Assembly: GCF_007559335.1 (NCBI RefSeq)
Contig: NZ_VMBG01000001.1
Span: 124,001 to 188,000, forward strand
Length of the DNA: 64,000 bases
Source of the DNA: Rariglobus hedericola
Lineage (GTDB): Bacteria; Verrucomicrobiota; Verrucomicrobiia; Opitutales; Opitutaceae
Direction: 5' to 3'
In this document: piece after piece, positions 30,999 to 36,760 of the stretch
How the letters are laid out: each line of letters starts with the position of its first letter
Position numbering within the stretch: position 1 is the first letter of the stretch
Made by a program: the position numbers and the translations under genes
Notes under the pieces: model-generated
What the model was told of the DNA's origin: nothing
The model's database searches: none
Seen by the model: only the letters and a program-made list of their open reading frames with translations

Positions 30999-31997
30999 TT
31001 ATGGCAAGTAGTCGGTGGTCATGGCCTGATCAACCGTGACCTTGTCCTTGGGGAGAATGGCGAGTTCTTCGAGCTGGTTAATCTGAGTTTGGAAACGTTC
31101 GCGGGTGATGCGTCCGATGTTGGCGGAACCGCCTTCAGGGCCGCGACCGGTGACGAGTTTTTCGTCGATGATCATTTTGCGCGAGAAGAGCATGAACTCG
31201 TCGGTGTTGTTGGCATTGGCCGCCTTCATGAGCGCGTGGGCCGGAGCGGGGTCGTTGGTGAGGTAGTCGTTCCAGCCCTTGATGTAGGCTTTCACAAAAG
31301 CGCGGGCCTCGGCGGGGTGGGCGGCGAGCCAGGCTTTGTTGGCAACGAGCACGGCATAGGCGTCGAAGCCGGCGTCCCAGGCGTAGAGGAAGCGGGGCAT
31401 TTCACCGCCGGCTTTGATGATGTGGTAGGGCTCGGCGATGTAATAGCCCTGCTGGATGAGATCCTTGGTCGCGACAAAATTGGCGACGGAGTAGTTCTGC
31501 GGAATGAGCTTAAAATCGATGCTGTATTTTTTCTTTAGATACGGGAGAAAAGCCCATTCGGGACGGGCCATGAGCGTCTTGCCATTGAGGTCTTCGAAGC
31601 GGGTGACGGGGTTGCCGGCGTGCAGCATGAGCACCGACGGGTCATTCTGGAATACGGCGGCGATCTGCGTGACGGGGATGCCTTGGGAGATGGCGAGGAG
31701 CGTGTTGGTGCTGTCGCCCTGGCCGATGTGGGCTTGGCCGGTGGCGACTTTCTGGATGACAAAGGCGTTGGGGCCGCCGGGGATGATTTCGACGTCGAGG
31801 CCGGCGTCTTTGAAAAAGCCTTTGGCCTGCGCCTGATAAAAACCGCCGTGCTCGGGTTCGGCGACCCAGTCGAGCTGGACGATGATTTTGGCGGGAGTTT
31901 TGACCAAGGCGACGTCGGCGGAGACCCAGACTTTATCGCACGAGGTGAGGAGTAGGCAGACGGCGACGGCCGATAAAAAATGAGGGAGAAGTCTCAT
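30999..31997 (-). CDS. NMT1/THI5-like ABC transporter substrate-binding lipoprotein
   Basis: 332 residues with a lipoprotein signal peptide (lipobox LLTSC, Cys 20). The family pattern is clear: VQLDWVAEPEHGGFYQAQAKGFFKDAGLDVEI, GQGDSTNTLLAISQGIPV, and a Tyr/Trp-rich binding region. Known relatives bind pyrimidines (ThiY), riboflavin precursors or sulfonates. Its ATG overlaps the pabC-like stop by 4 nt. The matching permease and ATPase lie five genes upstream in the same unit, with folate genes between. Substrate unknown; context suggests a folate-pathway compound. Confidence 0.9.
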   Translation of the reverse strand: MRLLPHFLSAVAVCLLLTSCDKVWVSADVALVKTPAKIIVQLDWVAEPEHGGFYQAQAKGFFKDAGLDVEIIPGGPNAFVIQKVATGQAHIGQGDSTNTLLAISQGIPVTQIAAVFQNDPSVLMLHAGNPVTRFEDLNGKTLMARPEWAFLPYLKKKYSIDFKLIPQNYSVANFVATKDLIQQGYYIAEPYHIIKAGGEMPRFLYAWDAGFDAYAVLVANKAWLAAHPAEARAFVKAYIKGWNDYLTNDPAPAHALMKAANANNTDEFMLFSRKMIIDEKLVTGRGPEGGSANIGRITRERFQTQINQLEELAILPKDKVTVDQAMTTDYLP

Positions 31998-32818
31998 GAT
32001 AGAGATTGGGTTTCGGAAATGTGGTAGAGGTTTTTCAGGCTGCGGGTGAGCGGTCCGATTTCGAGGTGGCGATCGTCGATTTGGGTGACAGGCATGACAC
32101 CGAGGAGGGCGTTGGTGACGAACACTTCGTCGGCATGGAGCAGATCGGAGTGGGTGAGCAGACCCTCGCGAACGCGGGCGGAACCGAGGAGCGCAAGGAC
32201 TTGGGCGCGGGCGATACCGGGCAGGGGGCCGCTGGCCAGTGAAGGCGTGTGGGCGATTCCGTCCCGCACCGTAAAGATGTTGCTGGTCGCGCCCTCGATC
32301 ACGATGCCGGCGGGGGTGAGGAAAAGGGGCTCGTCGAAGCCGGCGGCAACGGCGACGCGTTTGGCGCGGATGTTGGCGAGGTAGTTGAGGGTCTTGTGGC
32401 CGGAGAGGGCGCCGGTGCGTTCGCCGGTGAAGACCGTGTTGACGCGGAAGCCGCGAGCGTAGGTTTCGAGCGGATACGCGTTGGCCTTGGTGGAGATGAG
32501 TTCGCCCGTGGTGGTTTCGTCGCGGGCGAAGAGGACGATCTTGACGGAGCCGTCGGTCAGGGTGTTGGCGGTGGTGACGAGGGCGAGGCGTTCGCGAAGG
32601 GTTTCGATGGAGACGGTGTAGCGCAGGTCGAGGGCGCGGGCGCTGGCGGTGAGGCGGGCGTGGTGTTGCGCGAGGAAGGCCGGGCGACCGGAAGTGATTT
32701 TTACGGTTTCGAAGATGCCGTGGCCGTAGAGAAATCCCTCGCTGGTGGCAGGAATGAACGCCGAGGCGGCAGGCAGGAGAACGCCGTCGAGAATGACTTG
32801 TGAAGATGCGTCGGTCAT
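31994..32818 (-). CDS. pabC: Class IV aminotransferase, probable aminodeoxychorismate lyase
   Basis: 274 residues, PLP fold type IV. The N-terminal part has GFLYGHGIFETVKI, the Lys-containing segment is SGHKTLNYLANIRAKR, then EGATSNIFTV and GPLPGIARAQVL. PabC releases pyruvate from aminodeoxychorismate to give p-aminobenzoate. Branched-chain or D-amino-acid aminotransferases share these motifs, but the position 5 nt after folK-pabB argues for PabC. Confidence 0.85.
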   Translation of the reverse strand: MTDASSQVILDGVLLPAASAFIPATSEGFLYGHGIFETVKITSGRPAFLAQHHARLTASARALDLRYTVSIETLRERLALVTTANTLTDGSVKIVLFARDETTTGELISTKANAYPLETYARGFRVNTVFTGERTGALSGHKTLNYLANIRAKRVAVAAGFDEPLFLTPAGIVIEGATSNIFTVRDGIAHTPSLASGPLPGIARAQVLALLGSARVREGLLTHSDLLHADEVFVTNALLGVMPVTQIDDRHLEIGPLTRSLKNLYHISETQSLS

Positions 32819-32823
32819 GGCGG

Positions 32824-34752
32824 TTAAGCGGGGCTGGTCAGAGCCTCGTGCATGGCGCGGCCTTTATCGAGGGTTTCTTGATATTCTGCGGCGGGCTCGG
32901 AGTCCCACACGATGCCTCCGCCGACGTGGTAGTAAGCGTGGTTGTTGACGCACGTGATGGTGCGGATGGCAATGTTGAGGTCGGCGTTGCCATCGAAACC
33001 GATGTAGCCGATGGCGCCGGTGTAGATGTGGCGTCGGTGTGGCTCGAGTTCGTCGATGATCTGCATCGAGCGAATTTTGGGGGCGCCGGTGATGGAGCCG
33101 CCGGGGAAAGACGCGCGAACGCAGTCGATGATGTCGAGTCCGGCGCGGAGTTGTCCGGAAACCGTGGATACGAGATGATGAACGGTGGGATGGGATTCGA
33201 GCCGCCAGAGCTGGTCCACGCGGACCGAGCCGAATTCGCAGACGCGACCGAGGTCGTTGCGCTCGAGATCGACGATCATGAGGAGTTCAGCGCGGTCTTT
33301 TTCGCTGGAAAGGAGTTCAGCGGCGAGGGCGGCGTCGGTGGTCGGGTCGGCGGAACGCGGGCGGGTGCCTTTGATGGGGCGGGTTTCGACGTGGCGCTCG
33401 CGCAGGGTTAGGAAACGTTCGGGGGAACTGCTGATGAGTTGGACAGGACCGTAGGAGAGATAGGCGGCGAAAGGAGCCGGGCTGCGATCGCGAAGGCGCA
33501 GGTAGAGATCGTAGGGCGCGCAGGGCAGCGGAGTGGAGAAGCGTTGGGTGAGGTTAACCTGATAAACGTCACCCGAGGCGATGTAGTTTTTGATGCGACC
33601 GATGGCCTGCTTGTAAGAGTAGAAATCAAAATTAGCGGTCGGCTTGGACTCGGTCGGAATGCCGGGTTTGTAACTTATTAAGTTACAAACTGGATTGGCG
33701 ACGGAATGTGATGAAAGGGTTTCGCGGAGGCGGGCGAGGAGCGCGGCGGCGGGAGTGGTGGCGACGGGGTTGGCGACGATCCAGGTGCGGCCGGTGGCGT
33801 GTTCGTGGGCGATCAACGCGTCGTAGAAGGCGAACTCGCAGTCGGGGATTTCGGGGAGATCATCGGGGCGGACGCGGGGGAGTTTTTCGAGCTGCGTGCA
33901 CAGTTCGTAACCGAAAAAACCAACCGCACCGCCGGTGAAAGGGAGCGCAGGGGGCGCTGAGTCGTCGGGAAGTTTGTCACTTATTAAGTTACAAACTGGA
34001 TTGGGGCGGTGGTAGCGCGCCAGGAGGGTTTTGAGGGTGCCGAGGGTGTCGGGCTGATGCTTGGTGCGGAAGACGTGGAACGGTTCGAAGCCGATGAAAG
34101 AGTAGGCGCCGAGACCGTTGGTGGAGCGGCCGCTGTCGAGGAAGAAGGCGTGGTCGCGGCCGGCGATGCGGTGGAAGAATTCGTGGGGCGGGCAGGGTAG
34201 GGTGACTTCTTCGAGCAGGACAGGCGGGGTCAGTGCGAGTTCGGGGCGTGCGACGACGCCGGTGGTGTCAGCACGGGCGGCATGCGTGCGGACGGATTCA
34301 CTGTGAATGATCAGGTCGGGTGCGAGATCGGCGAGCGGCACGAGCACGAAAGCGCGTTCGTGGAGGCGCGGATGGGGAAGGATCAGGCGGTCGTCGGACA
34401 GCGTGGTGTTGGCGAAGAGAAGCACATCGAGGTCAATCGTGCGCGGGCCCCAGCGTTCGGCACGGATGCGTCCGAGTTGTTGTTCAATGATCAGACACGC
34501 AGCGAGCAACGCGTGCGGCGTGAGTGTCGTTTCTAGTTCGACGACCAGGTTAAGGAAATCCGGCTGCGCATCCTGATCGGGAAGGCAGAGGGCGGCCGTT
34601 TCGTAAACCGGCGAGACACGGGCGATGCGGACCTCGGGCGTGGCGGCGAGGCGGGCAAGGGCCCCGGCGAGCAGGGCGCGGCGGTCTCCGAGATTACCGC
34701 CCAGTCCGAGGTAGGCGGTCTGCACGCGATTTGCTGGTTTCGACGGCGACAT
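32824..34752 (-). CDS. FolK-PabB fusion: HPPK plus aminodeoxychorismate synthase component I
   Basis: 642 residues in one frame. Residues 12-160 are HPPK (YLGLGGNLGDR at 14-24; RWGPRTIDLDVLLF at 100-113 with D107 and D109). Residues 178-640 are the chorismate-binding PabB chain: LGAYSFIGFEP, PIKGTRPR, LMIVDLERNDLG and GGSITGAPKIRSMQ. The protein thus joins pterin pyrophosphorylation to the p-aminobenzoate branch. Two ten-residue inserts, NPVCNLISDK (251-260) and NPVCNLISYK (353-362), come from a repeated DNA palindrome. The start overlaps the end of folB by 59 nt. No pabA is in the window. Confidence 0.9.
   Translation of the reverse strand: MSPSKPANRVQTAYLGLGGNLGDRRALLAGALARLAATPEVRIARVSPVYETAALCLPDQDAQPDFLNLVVELETTLTPHALLAACLIIEQQLGRIRAERWGPRTIDLDVLLFANTTLSDDRLILPHPRLHERAFVLVPLADLAPDLIIHSESVRTHAARADTTGVVARPELALTPPVLLEEVTLPCPPHEFFHRIAGRDHAFFLDSGRSTNGLGAYSFIGFEPFHVFRTKHQPDTLGTLKTLLARYHRPNPVCNLISDKLPDDSAPPALPFTGGAVGFFGYELCTQLEKLPRVRPDDLPEIPDCEFAFYDALIAHEHATGRTWIVANPVATTPAAALLARLRETLSSHSVANPVCNLISYKPGIPTESKPTANFDFYSYKQAIGRIKNYIASGDVYQVNLTQRFSTPLPCAPYDLYLRLRDRSPAPFAAYLSYGPVQLISSSPERFLTLRERHVETRPIKGTRPRSADPTTDAALAAELLSSEKDRAELLMIVDLERNDLGRVCEFGSVRVDQLWRLESHPTVHHLVSTVSGQLRAGLDIIDCVRASFPGGSITGAPKIRSMQIIDELEPHRRHIYTGAIGYIGFDGNADLNIAIRTITCVNNHAYYHVGGGIVWDSEPAAEYQETLDKGRAMHEALTSPA
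33666..33698. repeat. Palindromic 33-bp repeat, copy A, inside folK-pabB
   Basis: GTTTGTAACTT-ATT-AAGTTACAAAC followed by TGGATTGG. It has 11-bp arms. On the coding strand it reads NPVCNLISYK. It differs from copy B at one of 33 positions and lies 306 bp away in the same orientation and reading frame. Confidence 0.92.
33972..34004. repeat. Palindromic 33-bp repeat, copy B, inside folK-pabB
   Basis: GTTTGTCACTT-ATT-AAGTTACAAAC followed by TGGATTGG. The single change from copy A (A to C in the left arm) breaks one stem pair and changes Tyr to Asp in the encoded NPVCNLISDK. Confidence 0.92.
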
Positions 34753-35083
34753 GGTCGAGGATGCCGGCGATGGGAACGGAGGGTTTTTTGATGGTGATAT
34801 CGACCTTGTCCAGGATGGGGCAAGCGGCGAGGACGCGGTCGATCACGTGACTGGCGAGCGCTTCGATGAGTTTGAAGCGGTCTTTCTCCACGGTCTCGCG
34901 GCAGATGGCGTAGACCTTGGTATAGTCGACGGTCTGGTGCAGATCGTCGGATGTGGCGGCGGCGGCGATGTCGAGAGTAAGCACGAGATCGACGATCCAG
35001 CGCTGGCCGAGTTTGTTCTCCTCGGGGAGGTCGCCGTGGTATCCGTAGAATACCATGTTGGAGAGGGTGATGCGGCCGGTCAT
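34694..35083 (-). CDS. folB: Dihydroneopterin aldolase
   Basis: Makes 6-hydroxymethyl-dihydropterin. ATG 35083 gives 129 residues (MTGRITLSNMVFYGYHGDLPEE...). Family segments: YGYHGDLPEENKLGQRW, TVDYTKVY, LIEALASHVIDRVL and KKPSVPIAGILDHVAVE. Upstream starts up to 35227 would run through a repeat and into folP, so they are rejected. The end overlaps folK-pabB by 59 nt. Confidence 0.94.
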   Translation of the reverse strand: MTGRITLSNMVFYGYHGDLPEENKLGQRWIVDLVLTLDIAAAATSDDLHQTVDYTKVYAICRETVEKDRFKLIEALASHVIDRVLAACPILDKVDITIKKPSVPIAGILDHVAVETSKSRADRLPRTGR

Positions 35084-35093
35084 TTTGCTTGGA

Positions 35094-35126
35094 AGTAGCG
35101 AGCAATGAGTAGCGGGTAGCGAGTAG
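35094..35126. repeat. Short AGTAGCGAG-type repeat between folP and folB
   Basis: Units AGTAGCGAG (35094-35102), AGTAGCGGG (35108-35116) and TAGCGAGTAG (35117-35126). It fills most of the 46-nt folP-folB gap and resembles in style the direct repeats found inside mpl and the methyltransferase gene. Confidence 0.7.
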
Positions 35127-35129
35127 AAA

Positions 35130-35966
35130 TCAACGGGCATCCCTGACGGCGGCGGCCATGAGGGCGACGCGGTGATTGGCGCGCACGTCGTGGACGCGGT
35201 GGAATTGAACGCCTTGGGAAACTGCAAGCGAGGTGAGGGCGAGGGTGCCTTCGAGACGTTCGTCGGGAGGAAGATCGAGAACGTGGCTGATCACGGATTT
35301 GCGGGAAACGCCGAGAAGGAGCGGATGCCCGAGCGAGTTCAGCTCCGCGATACGTGAAAGGATGGCGAGGTTTTGCGGCTGGGTTTTGGCGAAGCCGATG
35401 CCGGGATCGAGAATGATGCGGGTGGGGTCGATGCCGGCGTCTGTCGAGAGGGCGAGCGTTCGGGTGAGGAATTCTTTGATGCCGATGATGACGTCGCCGG
35501 CCGATTCGCGGAAGGCGGCGTCGTTGTGCATGAGGATCGCGGAGGCGCCGTGACGGGCGATGACGGCGGCCATGGCGGGGTCGCGTTGGAGGCCATGCAC
35601 GTCGTTGACGAGGTGGGCACCGGCCGCGAGCGCGGCATCGGCTACAGCGGCGTGGTAAGTGTCGATCGAAAGAGGTGCGGCGACGTGGCGAACGAGTTCG
35701 CGAATCACGGGAATGACGCGGCGGATTTCTTCGTCCGGGCTGATCTCGGTGTAACCGGGGCGCGTGGATTGACCGCCGATGTCGATCATCGTCGCGCCCT
35801 CCGCGACGAGCAGCCGCGCGTGCGAAACGGCGGCGGGGAGGCTGTTGTGTTTACCGCCGTCGAAGAAGGAGTCGTCGGTGACGTTGAGAATACCGACGAT
35901 GTGAGGCGTGCCATCGAGGATAAGGCGGCGGTCACGACAGTGAAATTCACGGGAGTTGGTCGTCAT
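35130..35966 (-). CDS. folP: Dihydropteroate synthase
   Basis: Joins hydroxymethyl-dihydropterin pyrophosphate and p-aminobenzoate; the sulfonamide target. ATG 35966 gives 278 residues. Signature segments: VGILNVTDDSFFDGG, EGATMIDIGGQSTRPG, APLSIDTYH, NDVHGL, ILDPGIGFAKT, LLGVSRKSVI. AAGGA 7 nt upstream is a good Shine-Dalgarno, and the ATG overlaps the permease stop (TGATG), so the ABC permease and folP are translationally coupled. A longer start at 36026 lies inside the permease gene. Confidence 0.96.
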   Translation of the reverse strand: MTTNSREFHCRDRRLILDGTPHIVGILNVTDDSFFDGGKHNSLPAAVSHARLLVAEGATMIDIGGQSTRPGYTEISPDEEIRRVIPVIRELVRHVAAPLSIDTYHAAVADAALAAGAHLVNDVHGLQRDPAMAAVIARHGASAILMHNDAAFRESAGDVIIGIKEFLTRTLALSTDAGIDPTRIILDPGIGFAKTQPQNLAILSRIAELNSLGHPLLLGVSRKSVISHVLDLPPDERLEGTLALTSLAVSQGVQFHRVHDVRANHRVALMAAAVRDAR

Positions 35967-36760
35967 CAGGAGTCCTTGGTTTGATAAGAGTCGTGCCAGC
36001 GGTGAAGGGCGGCCCAGCTGAGCCAAATGACAGCACCGGCGAACACGAAACCGAGCAGGCAGCTGATGATGGCGGTGGCGAAGAGCGCAGGGATTTGGAG
36101 CTGGGAACTGTAGATGATTGCGAGGAAACCGAGTCCGCCCTGACCGCCGCCGGAAGTGCCAGCGAACATGTCGCCGGAAATCGCTCCGATCGGCGCAAGC
36201 GCGGCGGCGATGCGCAAGCCCGTGAAAAAGTAAGGCAGCGCGGCGGGGATGCGCAGGAGAAACATTTGCTGGAGACCGGAGGCGCGACCCATGCGGAAAA
36301 GATCGATCAGGTTGCGGTCGGTGGAGACGAGACCTTGGGTGGCGTTAACGACCAGCGGGAAAAAGCTGATGAGGAACGTGATGATCACGACGCTCTTTAA
36401 TCCCGCGCCGACCCACAAAATCAGGATGGGCGCGAAGACGATGATGGGCGTGAGCTGAAGCGCCATGAGCCACGGATAAAGCCCGGCGCGAACGAGCGGA
36501 GATAGTGACAGCACAAGCGCGAGACCGGCACTGACAAGGACAGCCGATGCAAACCCGAGAGAGGCCCCGATGGCGGTATTTAACGTGGCGGACCAGAGCT
36601 GCGGCCATTTTTCGGAGAAGGCGCGGGCGACGGCACCGGGCGAAGGCAGCAGGAAGAGCTGATCGTCGGAAAGTATCCACAAACGCACGACATACCAGAT
36701 GGCGATCAACAAGAGGCCGGTCAGAACGGGCAGCGTGAAAGTGAGGATGCGGCGCTTCAT
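35966..36760 (-). CDS. ABC transporter permease (SsuC/ThiX-like)
   Basis: ATG 36760 gives 264 residues with about six membrane helices. The BPD_transp_1 signature is FRMGRASGLQQMFLLRIPAALPYFFTGLRIA (near residues 150-180). Relatives pair with NMT1/SsuA-type binding proteins. The start overlaps the ATPase stop by ATGA and its stop overlaps folP by one nt. The open frame extends to 37384 but the extra N-terminal part is antisense-like and Arg/His-rich, so it is excluded. Confidence 0.93.
   Translation of the reverse strand: MKRRILTFTLPVLTGLLLIAIWYVVRLWILSDDQLFLLPSPGAVARAFSEKWPQLWSATLNTAIGASLGFASAVLVSAGLALVLSLSPLVRAGLYPWLMALQLTPIIVFAPILILWVGAGLKSVVIITFLISFFPLVVNATQGLVSTDRNLIDLFRMGRASGLQQMFLLRIPAALPYFFTGLRIAAALAPIGAISGDMFAGTSGGGQGGLGFLAIIYSSQLQIPALFATAIISCLLGFVFAGAVIWLSWAALHRWHDSYQTKDS

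Follow-up and report, generated by a model that had tools for sequence, protein, structure and literature searches.

How can a short DNA palindrome lie twice, in frame and almost letter for letter the same, within one gene of folate synthesis, and what keeps its copies alike? The question is raised by folK-pabB of Rariglobus hedericola, which lies in the window analysed here, the whole stretch of 64,000 nucleotides from NZ_VMBG01000001.1 (positions 124,001 to 188,000). Positions without further label are those of the window; G, C, and L handles denote genomes, contigs, and loci. The features at the locus are:

32824–34752, minus strand: host gene, FolK (HPPK) fused to PabB (aminodeoxychorismate synthase component I), 642 aa, ORF open across both copies.
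33666–33690, no strand assigned: pabB site 2 palindrome, perfect, 25 bp round one base; the minus strand reads VCNLISYK in frame.
33691–33698, no strand assigned: asymmetric tail of site 2, TGGATTGG, on the minus strand CCAATCCA; matches the CCAANCC flank of the palindrome family.
33972–33996, no strand assigned: pabB site 1 palindrome with one arm mismatch, read as VCNLISDK.
33997–34004, no strand assigned: asymmetric tail of site 1, same as the tail of the 33666 copy.

As the sequence-only reading had stated, the units at 33666–33698 and 33972–34004 share orientation and 32 of 33 bases and start 306 bp (102 codons) apart. They are read within the 642-aa minus-strand ORF as NPVCNLISYK (33666 copy) and NPVCNLISDK (33972 copy). 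Its naming of the host as folK-pabB agrees with the FolK and PabB domains that we found (HPPK, Anth_synt_I_N, and Chorismate_bind). The arms, given there as 11 bp, are in fact 12 bp round one base where perfect; the 33972 copy has one arm mismatch and shows on the coding strand the half-changed state TGTAAC..GTGACA. The 33-bp unit is made up of this 25-bp palindrome (12-bp arms, one central base) and an 8-bp tail. Two matches to the 33-mer occur in the window, where none are expected, and none of 100 shuffles gave two. With zero expected by shuffling, and with separately assembled congeners carrying the palindrome, a chance repeat or an assembly artefact is hardly conceivable. In a PDB sequence search, CNLISYK of the second insert was found to sit on a 7-residue gap relative to PabB chain 8rp2, and nothing further was shown; an AlphaFold model of FolK-PabB built on a two-sequence alignment had a mean pLDDT of 28 and was left unused. 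The fusion is surrounded on the minus strand (31994–36026) by a folate cluster of ORFs, whose members we take to be pabC-like, folB-like, and folP-like. In one congener, folK-pabB is split over two frames, not at the palindromes (L071/L089, G004:C6:4649–6566).

The pair in pabB belongs to a dispersed family. That the 33-mer might occur nowhere else in the genome proved false, as the exact 33-mer is also present in an intergenic stretch at G000:C1:64388. In the R. hedericola genome (G000, 4.15 Mb), we know of 64 copies, 45 of them intergenic, 15 in genes, and four across gene ends. The 17-bp core has 34 exact copies, a degenerate 19-mer has 63 matches, and 62 places per strand match the 23-mer with at most three mismatches. 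The core of the unit is 25 bp long, or 33–41 bp including the flanks, in which CCAANCC is present in 21 of 126 stretches of 12 nt (63 copies; 0.0027 expected per flank); the commonest bases give the flank consensus CCAAGCC[AG], as far as position −2. According to a codon-usage ORF finder rather than standard annotation, 14 of the 15 in-gene copies, in 11 genes, read as C[NH]L[IL][SG][DY][KT], and the fifteenth is in another frame. Part of this in-frame bias is imposed by the sequence, as stops occur in the unit's other frames. In-gene copies occur in both orientations, and their further hosts are presumably genes for an AMP ligase, a DinG-like protein, an epimerase, an M32 peptidase, TatD, a DUF1365 protein, a methyltransferase, Ogt, Fmt, and an amidase. 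The proposed likeness to the palindromic elements of Rickettsia thus stands: a dispersed palindromic family is translated in frame in variable stretches of unrelated genes. The intergenic copies lie mostly behind genes. For 44 of the 45 (C2:656212 being outside these counts), 24 of 40 distances to the upstream stop codon are below 60 bp, and the contexts are tandem (28), convergent (6), divergent (5), or locus-edge (5).

The pattern is restricted to one family: the degenerate 23-mer was matched in 10 of its 36 genomes and in none of the 351 genomes sampled elsewhere in the phylum. Within the genus, the degenerate 19-mer occurs in 10 of 13 genomes at 4 to 82 places each, with no match in G003, G006, and G008 (three of 12 congeners). 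The exact core of R. hedericola is absent from all 55 relatives searched. When named genomes were scanned for TTTGTNACNTATTANGTNACAAA, at least 119 stretches matched; all 80 titles among the matches listed were of Verrucomicrobiota (Opitutaceae bacterium, Opitutus, Lacunisphaera, Rariglobus, and similar), and we therefore take the family to be one of the Opitutaceae. Two arrangements in congener G002 may be recorded here: four palindromes 90 bp apart within one ORF, presumably RND-transporter-like (L379, G002:C2:108234–108522), and tandem units of about 90 bp with one palindrome per unit (L384, G002:C3:127350–127549).

The same places are occupied in congeners, with other spellings. Their FolK-PabB proteins are about 69–83% identical to that of R. 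hedericola, and several of them have a palindrome at each of the two pabB sites. The pabB loops of R. hedericola are of the TGTAACTTA type, those of G009 and G004 read TGTCACTTA, and site 1 reads TGTCACCTA in G010, G001, G011, and G007; in the remaining congeners, the palindrome is decayed or the place is empty (G003, and G005 at site 1). The peptide is therefore not conserved in all PabB orthologues: several have the inserts, and in several others these are absent or differently spelled. Ten further genes hold 12 copies in R. hedericola, one of which, the epimerase site, could not be compared. At all 11 comparable sites, at least one congener has a palindrome peptide at the aligned place (VCHLISDK, KCHLIGDT, SNPIGYF, or a relative), with empty or decayed places in others. 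Since pabB and 11 further in-gene sites are shared, the positions are old, and we rejected recent insertion for the shared sites, where congeners carry palindromes. Entry by insertion is nevertheless likely, because empty alleles differ by roughly 7–10 codons (read by eye from the alignments), with insertion-like length differences in the pabB, epimerase, M32, and DUF1365 genes. Around the insert in the presence/absence pair G007/G005, the sequence is too diverged to read a target-site duplication of the kind that marks a MITE. Of the description as recently mobile, the mobility is consistent with a dispersed family and with the empty or shorter alleles (G003 and G005 at pabB site 1), whereas the recency conflicts with old positions common to congeners.

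Spelling is characteristic of each genome. In G002, all 53 exact 19-mer matches read TGTCACCTATTAGGTGACA, with a few one-mismatch relatives besides, and further spellings are found in other genera. Several genomes contain two spellings side by side, types I and II. When the matches listed in the named-genome scan were grouped into 18 genomes, the arms agreed in 92 of 98 cases at the outer position, in keeping with a single main spelling in each genome, and in 79 of 98 at the inner one. The near identity of the two pabB copies, which had been taken as a sign of recent mobility, instead reflects the genome-wide spelling (TGTAAC in R. hedericola, TGTCAC in most congener copies).

We compared the spellings base by base, counting every 19-mer match in the coding sequence retrieved for the 11 genes, beyond the exactly aligned sites. 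The 13 type-I copies of R. hedericola had A in the left arm in 13 of 13 cases and T in the right arm in 7 of 13 (left/right: A/T 7, A/G 6). The 34 type-I copies of congeners, which come from six of the nine with any copy in these genes, read C/G in 32 cases and A/G in two (left-arm A 2/34, right-arm T 0/34); the two copies that already have A are in G009 and G010. Fisher tests gave 7e-10 for the left and 3e-5 for the right arm, values that are a guide only, because the sites are related by descent. In ogt, the change from C to A is the sole difference in the palindrome between G000 and G010; the methyltransferase gene, dinG, and fmt have at least one outer- or centre-base difference besides. 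Outside genes or at gene edges, alignment revealed nine loci with A or T in R. hedericola against C or G in the relative in at least one half-site (L008, L014, L018, L019, L028, L044, L045, L049, and L093); at L014, the counterpart fits either of two neighbouring copies. A clear case is L046 against L180, in which the inner irregularity TTACG is common to both and both outer half-sites differ. Because of these in-place changes, including L046/L180, at least those copies were not simply re-inserted. Other copies had no counterpart at the compared place (L014 third vs L126, L014 first vs L130, L018 first vs L173, L028 vs L216, L049 second vs L122, two copies of L093 vs L148, and L003 vs L164), and L034 against L185 is irregular; as the named-genome loci had been picked for holding a copy, a rate of sharing is not derivable from this comparison. 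We rejected a general avoidance of TGTCAC in the R. hedericola genome: outside palindromes, it occurs 100 times in 477 kb where 88.8 are expected. With no such avoidance outside the palindromes, the change is peculiar to them.

If hairpin pairing or correction of one arm by the other were at work, copies with mismatched arms should be rarer than chance. In the R. hedericola genome, the 60 type-I copies read A/T in 44 cases, A/G in 10, C/T in five, and C/G in one (left/right), that is, 15 half-states of 60 against 14.8 expected under independent arms (Fisher p = 1.0; one genome, one position). In genes, the half-states are 6 A/G to 0 C/T, and elsewhere 4 to 5 (p = 0.044). The four type-II copies are divided into two A/T and two C/G. 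Independence of the arms counts against pairing or arm correction as the driver, and thus bears on two alternatives. The copies might be RNA-level hairpins, acting as stabilisers of 3′ UTRs or weak terminators and conserved for pairing, for which the location of most intergenic copies downstream of a gene would speak; given that mismatched half-states are not avoided and that copies also lie within genes in both orientations, we regard this as very improbable. Nor does Rfam have a family for the palindromes: the single match was below the cut-off (E = 0.15) and outside the copies, and a known RNA family was rejected accordingly. Alternatively, gene conversion or template switching between copies, together with arm correction (quasipalindrome mutation), could have homogenised the family without any function. 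Copies alike within a genome and different between genomes are what such a process would leave, the centre base (A/T) differs between some orthologues, and arm-to-arm copying is a known process, as far as the accessible parts of the literature describe it. However, arm correction predicts few half-states, and the change at L046/L180 leaves untouched an irregular base only 3 bp from it, which would need very short tracts. We consider functionless homogenisation quite unlikely.

A plain mobile palindrome of the REP/RPE type is a more serious alternative. A putative transposase would spread lineage spellings, and the shared positions would be old insertions or preferred sites. The empty alleles at pabB, epimerase, M32, and DUF1365, the preference for intergenic stretches close behind stop codons, and the conserved CCAANCC flank are all in line with this. 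So are the close pairs of copies, which resemble REP dimers: among the named-genome loci of relatives (at least 119), at least 30 pairs are under 120 bp apart, 25 of those at 44–58 bp, and 23 are inverted by centre base. On the other hand, orthologous sites show in-place differences in their half-sites, and in one clear case a local irregularity has been kept. Moreover, of the 26 RAYT-like matches (PF01797), which come from 11 of the 13 genomes, none has a palindrome within the flanking sequence retrieved (at most 1.5 kb on either side, and shorter near the ends of contigs), and RAYT counts do not track copy counts (G004, 1 vs 71; G001, 6 vs 31; G003, 1 vs none). With no copy near these matches and no tag, a RAYT-driven REP was rejected, and we judge a plain mobile element to be rather unlikely. 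Beside one RAYT-like gene lies a hairpin pair, GTAGGGCC, which is GTAG REP-like and separate from the palindrome family (L097:2633–2706, G000:C1 about 1513.7 kb).

We also considered where on the chromosome the copies lie. By GC skew, the origin lies at about C2:110 kb and the terminus at about C1:665 kb. The largest copy-free stretch of the two big contigs, C1:430–1054 kb, contains the skew terminus (P = 0.016, 44 merged sites). Of these sites, none lies less than 200 kb from the terminus, against 4.75 expected (one genome, two largest contigs), and the deficit is weaker further out, with two sites within 300 kb (7.1 expected) and five within 400 kb (9.5 expected). In G002, the skew is too weak to place a terminus. 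The gap may alternatively be due to younger DNA in this region. A ParB_N search of the R. hedericola genome gave one match only, without a second ParB paralogue, and a Noc-like ParB paralogue was rejected as the binder. A survey of genes near the origin, which we take to be dnaN, mnmG, mnmE, and atp genes, gave no candidate. The further-reaching idea that about 60 sites, partly in conserved genes, form a chromosome-wide network of binding sites for a putative dimeric protein, whose recognition changed in one lineage and took most sites with it, and that copies avoid the terminus like nucleoid-occlusion sites, is in our view unlikely.

The explanation that we favour, if tentatively, is that untagged REP/RPE-like insertions have been kept matched to a putative dimeric DNA-binding protein whose preference shifted from TGTCAC to TGTAAC. 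The palindromes would have inserted between genes and into tolerant parts of proteins before several species of the genus diverged, at positions that these species still share, and the copies would since have been held near one main spelling per genome. They would serve as half-site pairs for a sequence-specific dimeric protein. Once its preference had shifted in the R. hedericola lineage, copies genome-wide would have followed by point changes, which would account for the concerted in-place changes and the independent arms. Inside genes, this pressure would meet protein constraint, so that the right arm (Asp to Tyr), probably the costlier protein change, would trail the left arm (His to Asn). 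Chromosome-wide marking, like that by nucleoid-occlusion sites, is a speculative role; three of 12 congeners have no copy that fits the pattern, and any role is therefore dispensable. Several points count against a binder: the coexisting spellings I and II are not simply explained by one binder, the close pairs resemble dimers of mobile REPs, and the arms, independent at one position in one genome, do agree across genomes.

Short palindromic repeats tend to be viewed either as mobile DNA or as RNA hairpins. In the present case, copies that occupy fixed, orthologous places, protein genes among them, change spelling jointly and arm by arm, a natural experiment able to separate a mobile element, a hairpin, and a protein-binding site. 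The concerted change points to a putative trans-acting factor that could be fished for with the two spellings. The same protein stretches within one genus are also seen to carry DNA-driven peptides (VCNLISYK, VCHLISDK, KCHLIGDT, and SNPIGYF).

In the open-licence literature, we found no description of this untagged palindrome family or of its concerted in-place change. Intragenic palindromes in Opitutaceae are not new, given that the accessible text of PMC3733652 describes many Opitutus terrae genes with GTAG repeats and equates RPE-4 and RPE-6 with CGTC repeats. As far as they are described in the available portions of PMC3733652 and PMC3116915, GTAG REP/REPIN elements share with the present palindromes their size, the intergenic location near gene ends, the inverted pairs, and subfamilies with alternative complementary stem bases, and the intragenic copies of O. 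terrae (PMC3733652) are from the same bacterial family by name. Such REPs differ in having a tag at the stem foot, whereas our flank consensus, CCAAGCC[AG], has no GTAG-type tag, and in flanking a RAYT gene, beside which no palindrome was found here (0/26). Our family may be related to GTAG-17, 19, or 20 of O. terrae, from which it is set apart by the tag only, not by consensus sequence, on the basis of the accessible part of PMC3733652. CGTC REPs, in the same partial source, likewise lack a dedicated transposase and have intragenic copies (RPE-4, RPE-6), but they have a CGTC/TGTC end tag, an 8–9 bp stem, a 4–5 base loop, and a CCA tail, in contrast to the 12-bp arms round one base seen here; TGTC of the congener spelling sits inside the stem, not at its end. 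Noc, which the accessible section of PMC4331003 names together with SlmA, has about 70 palindromic sites, none of them at the terminus. Our palindromes resemble Noc/SlmA sites in their number, tens round the chromosome, and, on the two largest contigs of one genome, in a largest gap that contains the terminus, and differ from them in looking like insertions and in the lack of a second ParB paralogue. A further parallel is given by the RPEs (Ogata et al, 2000, 2002, as given in part in PMC2229807 and PMC3733652), a palindromic family that is found both in intergenic stretches and in frame in unrelated conserved genes, where it is translated as the same peptide. According to these excerpts, RPEs are 105–146 bp long and belong to another phylum, whereas the palindrome of R. 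hedericola measures 25 bp (33–41 bp with flanks) and its spelling changes in place across species.
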